From positions 1 to 36,284 of the forward strand of contig JABJHO010000054.1 of assembly GCA_018661775.1 (NCBI GenBank): a DNA stretch of 36,284 nt. Direction: 5' to 3'. Each line of letters begins with the position of its first letter. Position 1 is the first letter of the stretch. Both the position numbers and the translations under genes were made by a program. Below are positions 23,093 through 33,104 of the stretch, piece after piece. The notes under the pieces were generated by a model that had not been told where the DNA came from, did not search any database, and worked only from the letters and a program-made list of their open reading frames with translations. This DNA is from Candidatus Magasanikiibacteriota bacterium (GTDB lineage Bacteria > Patescibacteriota > Patescibacteriia > Magasanikbacterales > UBA922).

Positions 23093-23464
23093 ATGCGCGA
23101 AATACTAAATATAGTAATATCACTTAGTACACTGGTTTCAATTGTAGCTCTAGTCATCCTTTGGGCAATAGCCATGTATGAAGTGGTAAAAAGAAAAGAC
23201 CTTAAAAAAAGCCGCTTGCTATGGATTGCACTTCTTTTGTTATTTATACCTTTTGGCTTAATTATGGATCAATACTTAGAAATCCTTGCATGGTTTGTTA
23301 GTATTTTACTTCTTATGCCTATTGCCTTAATAATGTATTTTTTTACAGAAAAAAGAAAAAAACAAGGGTATATTGCTAGATTATTTTTCTTTATAATAAT
23401 AGCCAGTTTTATTGTTTTTTCGGTATTAAATATATTCTTCAGTACACTTGGTTTTGCAATATGA
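23093..23464 (+). CDS. Hypothetical small membrane protein
   Basis: 123 aa with 3-4 hydrophobic segments. Confidence 0.65.
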   Translation: MREILNIVISLSTLVSIVALVILWAIAMYEVVKRKDLKKSRLLWIALLLLFIPFGLIMDQYLEILAWFVSILLLMPIALIMYFFTEKRKKQGYIARLFFFIIIASFIVFSVLNIFFSTLGFAI

Positions 23465-23504
23465 TTGTGGTAATATAGAAAACATAAAGAGAAATTCCAA
23501 TAAA

Positions 23505-23927
23505 ATGATAAAATTCTTCAACAAAATAATATCACCTATACTTTTGACAAAAAAATGGAACCCTTTAACAAAAGTTGGGGAGTTTAGGTTCAAAATATAC
23601 CCCAAAGACTTTGAGTTGGTCCGAAACTTTTATGAAACAGTACTTGAGTATCCGGTAGTAAAAGAGTGGGATAGTGCTAAAGATGACAAAGGAGTGTTGT
23701 TTGATGTTGGCGGTACAACGATAGAACTACTTTCACCAAAAGATGTGTACAAGCCAATTGGTGGCTGTGGATTATCCCTTGAAGTTGTTGATGTGTGGAA
23801 ATTGTGGAAAAAATTTGAAAACGCTGATAATATTATTTTTCCAATACGAGACAATGCCTGGGGTGATACATCTTTTTGTGTTAGTGATCCAGAAGGTTTT
23901 CATATTACGTTTTTTACCAAACCGTAA
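23505..23927 (+). CDS. VOC (glyoxalase/bleomycin-resistance fold) family protein
   Basis: FRFKIYPKDFELVRNFYETVLEYPVVKEWD...GGTTIELLSPKD...FCVSDPEGFHITFF; likely start MIKFF at 23505 within track ORF 23448..23927. Confidence 0.75.
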   Translation: MIKFFNKIISPILLTKKWNPLTKVGEFRFKIYPKDFELVRNFYETVLEYPVVKEWDSAKDDKGVLFDVGGTTIELLSPKDVYKPIGGCGLSLEVVDVWKLWKKFENADNIIFPIRDNAWGDTSFCVSDPEGFHITFFTKP

Positions 23928-23995: not shown

Positions 23996-24200
23996 TAAAA
24001 AATCGGTGTGAGGGTACACACCGATTAAACAATAACACTGATTGGTCATCAGGATCGTGTATTGTTACACACTAGCTAACAGTCGAGCATCGTGATAATC
24101 GCGAAAGTTTAAAACTAATTATTACGAAATGCCGCGGTCTGCATCGGCTAGTGTCGGCCAACCATACACTTATAAAGGACCCTGTATTACGTTGGTTGAA
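23996..24200 (-). ncRNA. Candidate structured small RNA, family unknown
   Basis: Minus strand: TTGACA (24232-24227), 17-nt spacer, extended -10 TGaTATCGT, nested inverted repeats over ~150 nt, terminator AATCGGTGTG-TACCCT-CACACCGATTTTTT (24026-23997). No ORF explains it. Confidence 0.6.
23997..24026 (-). terminator. Rho-independent terminator of the candidate ncRNA
   Basis: Stem 24001-24010/24017-24026 (10 bp perfect), followed on the minus strand by TTTTTT. Confidence 0.8.
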
Positions 24201-24203
24201 TAC

Positions 24204-24232
24204 ACGATATCAGAAATCTAAATATTTGTCAA
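24204..24232 (-). promoter_or_regulatory. Strong sigma70-type promoter with extended -10
   Basis: TTGACA, 17 nt, TATCGT preceded by TGn. Confidence 0.75.
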
Positions 24233-24440
24233 CCTAAGGTGCGTAAAATACTCTTATATAGTAACAAAACTGGTTCTTTTCTTAGGAATTACACAGAGAG
24301 CGACATGTTTGATCTAATCAGAACGTGGTACAAAATTAGCCATTTTTCCTTGATTTATGGTATTATATATGCAAAGACTTGATTTTTTCTGGCTTTTTGT
24401 GTATAGTAATAGGACGAAATAATTAATAGTAACAGTTTAT

Positions 24441-24662
24441 ATGGATGCAATTCTGCAAGTTGTACAGACAATAATTAGCGTATTACTCATAGTGGTTATT
24501 CTATTACAACACAAAGGTGCCGGACTTGGCGCTGGGTTTGGTGGCGGTGGCGGTGGTCCTGTGGTGACCACAAGGAGGGGTGTAGACTTATTTTTACACA
24601 AAATAACTATTGGATTGGCAGTATCCTTCTTTGTTCTTGCATTTATTGGTATTTTTATCTAA
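24441..24662 (+). CDS. secG: Preprotein translocase subunit SecG
   Basis: 73 aa, two TMs, LLQHKGAGLGAGFGGGGGG. Confidence 0.9.
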   Translation: MDAILQVVQTIISVLLIVVILLQHKGAGLGAGFGGGGGGPVVTTRRGVDLFLHKITIGLAVSFFVLAFIGIFI

Positions 24663-30977: not shown

Positions 30978-33104
30978 GTGATGGAAGTATACATTCTACG
31001 AGAGTATCAACAGCAGGCTGTTACATATTTTAGTAACAAGCCAAAAGGTATTATCTACATGGCAAGTGGCCTTGGAAAAACACTTGTTGCCGCAGACATT
31101 ATTCACAACACGCTTATCATGAAAGATACTGCACGGATATTGTTTCTGTGTGACAGTCGAGATATTATTACCCAAGCACATGATGTGTGCCAGCAAAGTA
31201 TTAACGACAAAAGTGTCACAATGAGTGTGTTTTGTTCGACAGACACGAACACACATTCTAGCCAAGTGGTATTTGCCACATTTGCAGGATTGCGACGCCA
31301 TACACATCTCTACAGCAACGATACGTTTGACCTAATCATTGTAGACGAAGCACATCATGCATGTGCGCCAACCTACAAAAAAACCATAACGTATTTTTCT
31401 CCCACACAACTCCTGGCACTCACCGCAACACCAAACCGTATGGACAAACAGGATATACGAGACATCTTTGGTGAGATTGTGTATACATACACGCTTGCTC
31501 AAGCACTTGCCGACCAGACATGGCTTGCAGATCTGAGCTATTTTCTTCTCACAGACAACTTCAGTGAGAAAAAACTTGCCGCACTTCAAGAAATGGTCTG
31601 CAATGGTGAACGTGTTACACAAACCATGCTTGATGCCTGTTTCCAGCAAGAACGTTTAGAGAGCGTTGCCAAAAAACTCCGCACAGAACATGCTGGAAAA
31701 AAGACTATTGTCTTTGCTCAAAATATTTCTCATGCAAAACAAGTTGAAGAGGTAATGCCAGAAGCACGTGCCTACCACTCAGAGTTGTCACAAAAGCGTC
31801 AACAAGACATTCTCACAGCATTTCGCAATAATACTCTTTCTATCATTGTCACTATAGACAAGTTTAATGAAGGTGTTGACATTCCAGATGCAGACGTCCT
31901 AGTTTTTCTTCGCTCAACCGCATCTGAAACTGTATGGTTACAACAACTCGGAAGAGGGTTGCGAAAAACCACAGACAAAACCCATGTAACCATTCTTGAC
32001 TATGTTGGCAGCTACACCCGTCTTAAGCAGGTTGATGCACTAGACAGAAAAGTCCGAGAAGCACAAGAAAAGAACACACCATCTTCTTCCACTTTTACTG
32101 TTCCCGGACTCGGTCTTCATTTCACCAAAGTCTTACAAGATATTGTGCAGATTCTTGCTCGCATACATAAAGACTTTTATCCAACCATTGAAGAAGCTAT
32201 GGAAGCAGTGCAACGTCTTGATCCTGTGCCAACATTAATAAGAGAATACCACAAAACCTACACACAGGACGCACGTCTTCCGAGTAATCCAGATCAGCAC
32301 TACAGCAAAGAAGTTTGGGATCGTATTGGTGGGTGGAAAGGGTTTCTTGGTCAACCTATCCCAGAAGAAAAATATGCAACCACTGAAGAAGCAATGGTAG
32401 CCGTACAACGCCTGGATCCTGTGCCAACAATAATCAAAGAATACCAAAAAACCTACCATCAGGATGCACGTCTTCCGAGTAATCCGGATAACTACTACGG
32501 TAAAGAAGATTGGGATCGTATTGGTAAATGGATTGGGTTTCTTGGTACTGGAAAATACCCAACCATTGAAGAGGCGATGGAAGCGGTACAACGCCTGGAC
32601 CCTGTACCAACATCACACAAAGAATACCAAAAAACTTACATACAAGATGCACGTCTTCCGTCTAGTCCGAATGAGTACTACAGGAAAGAAGCTTGGGATC
32701 GTATTGGTAAATTCATTGGGTTTCTTGGTACTGGAAAATACCCAACCATTGAAGAAGCAATGGCAGCCGTACAACGTCTTGATCCTGTGCCAACATTAAT
32801 AAGAGAATACCACAAAACCTACACACAGGACGCACGTCTTCTGAGTGCTCCGGATAAGTACTACAGCAAAGAAGTTTGGGGTCGTATTGGTAAGTGGAAA
32901 GGGTTTCTTGGTACTGGAAAATACAAAACCATTGAAGAAGCAATGGCAGCGGTACAACGTCTGGATCCTGTGCCAAAAAAACAAAGAGAATACAAAAAAA
33001 CCTACCCTCAGGACGCACGTCTTCCGAGTAATCCGAATGAGTACTACAGGAAAGAAGCTTGGGATCGTATTGGTAAATTCATTGGGTTTCTTGGTAAGAG
33101 GTAA
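30978..33104 (+). CDS. SF2 DEAD/DEAH-type helicase fused to five C-terminal ~61-aa repeats
   Basis: LREYQQQAVTYF...MASGLGKT (Walker A), LIIVDEAHH (DEAH), LLALTATPNR, QQLGRGLRK; five units EEAMxAVQRLDPVP...EYxKTYxxDARLPSNPxxYYxKExWDRIGxWxGFLG. Confidence 0.9.
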   Translation: MMEVYILREYQQQAVTYFSNKPKGIIYMASGLGKTLVAADIIHNTLIMKDTARILFLCDSRDIITQAHDVCQQSINDKSVTMSVFCSTDTNTHSSQVVFATFAGLRRHTHLYSNDTFDLIIVDEAHHACAPTYKKTITYFSPTQLLALTATPNRMDKQDIRDIFGEIVYTYTLAQALADQTWLADLSYFLLTDNFSEKKLAALQEMVCNGERVTQTMLDACFQQERLESVAKKLRTEHAGKKTIVFAQNISHAKQVEEVMPEARAYHSELSQKRQQDILTAFRNNTLSIIVTIDKFNEGVDIPDADVLVFLRSTASETVWLQQLGRGLRKTTDKTHVTILDYVGSYTRLKQVDALDRKVREAQEKNTPSSSTFTVPGLGLHFTKVLQDIVQILARIHKDFYPTIEEAMEAVQRLDPVPTLIREYHKTYTQDARLPSNPDQHYSKEVWDRIGGWKGFLGQPIPEEKYATTEEAMVAVQRLDPVPTIIKEYQKTYHQDARLPSNPDNYYGKEDWDRIGKWIGFLGTGKYPTIEEAMEAVQRLDPVPTSHKEYQKTYIQDARLPSSPNEYYRKEAWDRIGKFIGFLGTGKYPTIEEAMAAVQRLDPVPTLIREYHKTYTQDARLLSAPDKYYSKEVWGRIGKWKGFLGTGKYKTIEEAMAAVQRLDPVPKKQREYKKTYPQDARLPSNPNEYYRKEAWDRIGKFIGFLGKR
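32178..33101 (+). repeat. Five tandem coding repeats (starts 32178, 32373, 32556, 32739, 32922; period 183 bp after a 195-bp first unit)
   Basis: Read directly; two long identical blocks: 32211-32280 = 32772-32841 (70 nt) and 32666-32730 = 33032-33096 (65 nt). Confidence 0.95.

Follow-up and report, generated by a model that had tools for sequence, protein, structure and literature searches.

The 36,284-nucleotide stretch of DNA analyzed here (the window) appears, on balance, to carry a small RNA gene that is restricted to its species or lineage and is read from the minus strand of the gap between a VOC-domain gene and secG. A promoter, an intrinsic terminator, a GC contrast and folding strength support a free-standing gene; the multi-branched closing stem that a sequence-only reading had proposed for the same RNA is not supported.

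The window is contig 21 of a relative of Magasanikbacteria with a tiny genome of 981 kb, and the protein encoded downstream of secG is 44-51% identical to its nearest named relatives, those of Candidatus Magasanikbacteria. The genes prmC, prfA and rpmE (the last assigned from its sequence) lie on the minus strand and are followed by a 123-aa membrane-type open reading frame (ORF) and the VOC gene on the plus strand, and then by the RNA candidate. Past the candidate, the plus strand carries secG, a family-5 solute-binding protein gene and an RNase J gene. Farther along, a 708-aa helicase-like ORF (30978-33104, plus strand) contains several near-identical repeats in its C-terminal part, seen in translation (TIEEAM.AVQRLDPVPT...KTY.QDARLPS). 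The gap between the VOC gene and secG spans 513 bp, and its features and flanking genes are as follows:

23502 to 23927, plus strand: VOC / glyoxalase-like protein gene (Pfam PF00903, E 2.5e-8)
23997 to 24026, minus strand: intrinsic terminator by consensus match, with 10 perfect pairs (stem 24026-24001), a loop of 6 and a T-run
24001 to 24197, minus strand: predicted small RNA of about 195-197 nt, its start placed from the -10 position and its end at the end of the terminator stem
24038 to 24052, minus strand: small hairpin CTGAT-GACCA-ATCAG, from sequence and fold
24069 to 24154, minus strand: long irregular arm closed by ACACTAGC / GCTAGTGT (z -2.8 on the minus strand, -3.2 on the plus strand)
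24158 to 24195, minus strand: hairpin CCAAC / GTTGG with ATACA / TGTAT inside, from sequence and fold
24199 to 24208, minus strand: 10-bp 5' arm of the proposed closing stem (partner 24054-24063), overlapping the -10 element and probably not transcribed
24204 to 24212, minus strand: extended -10 element TGaTATCGT (TATCGT at 24209-24204, with TG before it), separated from the -35 element by a 17-nt spacer
24227 to 24232, minus strand: -35 element TTGACA, matching the consensus at 6/6 positions
24379 to 24407, plus strand: probable promoter of secG (TTGATT-17-TATAGT), pointing away from the RNA promoter
24441 to 24662, plus strand: secG (Pfam PF03840, E 6e-16)

Both of the minus-strand signals described by the sequence-only reading, the promoter and the 10-bp perfect terminator, are present at these positions. 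Among dinucleotide shuffles of the 513-bp gap, an equally good promoter arose in 1.1% and a 10-bp perfect terminator in 0.2%, and the two occurred jointly in 0 of 1000; plain counts of promoter-like and terminator-like sites over 1.4 kb were near expectation. The block at 24027-24208 has a GC content of 41% and the terminator 50%, against 26-30% in the adjoining non-coding DNA. The joint shuffle result and the contrast with the neighboring spacer both argue against the view that the region is a non-functional spacer, left over from an insertion between rpmE and secG, whose signals and repeats are coincidental or fossil. We consider that view unlikely, and return to the observations in its favor below. 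A blastn search of 144 relatives found no copy of the RNA; its sole match was in one relative (G036 / L003), where a nearly identical promoter stretch (TTGACAAATATTT...TTTCTGATAnnGTGTATT, 36 nt matched at 86%) precedes an ORF. The match covers the promoter stretch itself and supports the promoter, not the RNA.

From this sigma-70-type promoter, RNA polymerase would start near 24197 and release a structured RNA of roughly 195 nt with the terminator hairpin at its 3' end. No ORF with a plausible start lies inside the predicted transcript, in agreement with the earlier reading, and no hidden small protein was found there. A cis-acting leader or riboswitch is unlikely because the RNA ends before any minus-strand gene, and the candidate is not a classical cis-antisense RNA since it overlaps neither the VOC gene nor secG. 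Nor is its structure a leader of secG, for which there is a separate promoter-like site further downstream; similar sites are visible before secG in two relatives (L005 and L020). Going by anatomy, the most likely mode of action would be that of a trans-acting regulatory RNA working through base pairing or protein binding; alternatively, it may be a young RNA without a settled function. RNA duplex predictions against 12 translation starts in the window gave a best z of -2.0 (25 shuffles each), and no pairing was conspicuous. The RNA promoter and the probable secG promoter diverge from a common region of ~146 bp, so that the two could influence each other's transcription.

The folding results are more equivocal. 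The 237-nt element on the minus strand has an MFE of -64.4 (z -3.4, with 0/200 shuffles as stable), and the predicted transcript (24197-24001) likewise has a z of -3.4 (0/400 shuffles); the neighboring spacer (24233-24440) gave z values of +1.4 and +0.75. When both strands of the window were tiled with 182-nt stretches at 150-nt steps (459 in total), the minus-strand stretch at 24001 had a z of -4.1, the lowest save for both strands of the stretch with tRNA-Leu. A large share of the minus-strand z is due to the terminator hairpin: without it, z is -1.95 (15/400 shuffles as stable), and the internal fold is only weakly significant. The plus strand folds better, with a z of -4.4 for the 237 nt and a range from -3.8 (155 nt, from one closing arm to the other) to -4.8, and its fold has twice the G-U pairs of the minus-strand fold (6 versus 3). 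In an RNA selected for its shape, the transcribed strand is normally expected to fold at least as well. Both observations favor an element of the plus strand, for example a processed or stabilizing 3' region of the VOC mRNA or a plus-strand RNA. However, the gap holds no plus-strand terminator, a scan gave no plus-strand promoter-like site before the structured element, and a T-run flanks the hairpin only on its minus-strand side. We regard a plus-strand element as improbable.

The proposed architecture fared less well than the gene. The nested inverted repeats listed in the sequence-only reading occur with the sequences and coordinates it gave, and 2.3% of shuffles of the 513-bp gap contained a perfect 10-bp inverted repeat with an 8-bp one nested inside. 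Inverted repeats of 10 bp alone are not exceptional (2 observed versus 0.23 expected, seen in 5% of shuffles), and these near-chance repeat counts, like the internal minus-strand fold at a z of about -2, are what a non-functional spacer might show. The accompanying caveat that the closing arm overlaps the predicted -10 proved correct: 24199-24208 runs into the -10 element, so an RNA starting at ~24197 would lack this 5' arm. With one arm overlapping the -10 element, a weak internal fold on the minus strand, a better fold on the plus strand and no homologue found, a multi-branched RNA held together by such a closing stem is unsupported. Among the internal helices, the arm at 24069-24154 is the best supported.

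We searched for homologues with a covariance model (R1) built from the single window sequence and its minus-strand fold. Across 144 relatives, 86 genomes of the order and 381 of the class (overlapping sets), R1 matched the window only, under stricter filters that very diverged homologues could escape. No copies of the RNA were found by blastn in phages and plasmids, and none of the RNA region by exact-pattern scans of viral contigs. No syntenic counterpart was found upstream of secG in relatives either; automatic location of secG succeeded in only 6 relatives besides the window, but R1 was run over all loci. In one of these loci (L045), rpmE and secG are divergent and ~210 nt apart, measured between ORF ends, and in three others (L005, L009 and L020) they are likewise divergent and close together, in each case without the RNA. 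The block comprising the 123-aa ORF, the VOC gene and the RNA was found between rpmE and secG in no relative examined. Given the adjacency of rpmE and secG in relatives, the block is either an insertion in this genome or has been lost from the relatives. The closeness of these two genes elsewhere and the lack of conservation among the genomes searched with the covariance model both speak for the spacer explanation.

The requested comparison among relatives thus yielded no homologue, and without one no covariation test was possible. No conservation in relatives was found, an outcome that the sequence-only reading had said would refute an RNA gene; we take it to weaken the small RNA gene without refuting it, because young small RNAs are often limited to one species. 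The only genome searched from the same genus is 89% complete and lacks a secG match, so the absence of the RNA there is weak evidence and does not decide whether the RNA arose after the genus did.

The two plus-strand genes at 23093-23927, the membrane-type ORF and the VOC-domain gene, separate rpmE and secG, which are near neighbors in relatives. Genes related to the VOC gene were found in only 3 of 94 other genomes (G015, G003 and G055), in different gene contexts, and in one of the three the match is interrupted by stop codons. None of the three showed similarity to the RNA, which does not appear to travel with the VOC gene. Nested inverted repeats within a block absent from relatives could also mark an element acting at the DNA level, such as the end of a mobile element, a recombination site or a replication hairpin. 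This we find very doubtful, since the element is present in a single copy in the genome and has no convincing flanking duplication, no adjoining transposase-like gene and no phage or plasmid match.

Known RNA families were searched with Rfam at gathering and relaxed thresholds, and the region had no match; the scan returned only tRNA and 23S elsewhere, plus a PreQ1 match at E 2.9, attributable to chance. The earlier reading had seen no tRNA-like domain of a tmRNA, no P4 motif of RNase P RNA and no GGAA-loop motif of SRP RNA in the region. ARAGORN found no tmRNA in the region, and the tmRNA of the genome is at G000:C4:10968-11360. Its RNase P RNA (RF00010) is on another contig (G000:C51:14266-14676). 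SRP RNA (RF00169, RF01854) and 6S RNA (RF00013) had no match in the region at the relaxed threshold, and 6S motifs are absent from it.

A diverged housekeeping RNA missed by Rfam is nevertheless conceivable: no SRP RNA model matches this genome or 11 relatives, the size of the candidate suits 6S RNA, and a 6S match was seen in only one relative. Such an RNA would be common to relatives, though, and none was found there; tmRNA and RNase P RNA are accounted for on other contigs, relaxed cmscan gave neither an SRP nor a 6S match, and GTGTGCAAGC, GAAGCCTAA and CCACCT, which occur in the 6S-like RNA of relative G003, are all missing from the candidate. We judge this explanation very improbable. The 6S-like RNA itself (L074 449-546, minus strand) lies just upstream of prfB and scores 37.9 bits versus the Rfam cut-off of 46.4. 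As a separate observation, the two SRP RNA models gave no match in 12 genomes (G000 and the 11 relatives, of the same family or order), and control genomes gave matches; either these 12 genomes have lost SRP RNA or theirs has diverged beyond the reach of the models. Both tmRNA and RNase P RNA were found in most of the 12.

The small RNA gene preferred here is at present an ordinary orphan candidate, with no relative found to carry it. It is highly unlikely to represent a new class of structured RNAs, confined to a narrow Patescibacteria lineage, with a true multi-branched fold and acting on a conserved process, for example secretion, beside secG. Full-text searches of the literature found no paper on such small RNAs in Patescibacteria, this lineage included. 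Alone, the candidate alters no picture, but being well delimited by a promoter and a terminator it offers a usable entry for transcript mapping.

Among known systems, bacterial SRP RNA shares with the candidate only the location beside secG; the candidate has no match to the SRP models and was not found in relatives. The resemblance to 6S RNA (RF00013) extends to a length of ~190 nt and a long irregular arm, without the motifs of the G003 6S-like RNA. The closest likeness in kind, though not in family, is to intergenic trans-acting small RNAs with a sigma-70 promoter and an intrinsic terminator. The candidate differs from these in having no target and no conserved seed and in being known from sequence alone, and it resembles them in its length of ~200 nt, its free-standing signals, its lack of an ORF and its limited phylogenetic spread.
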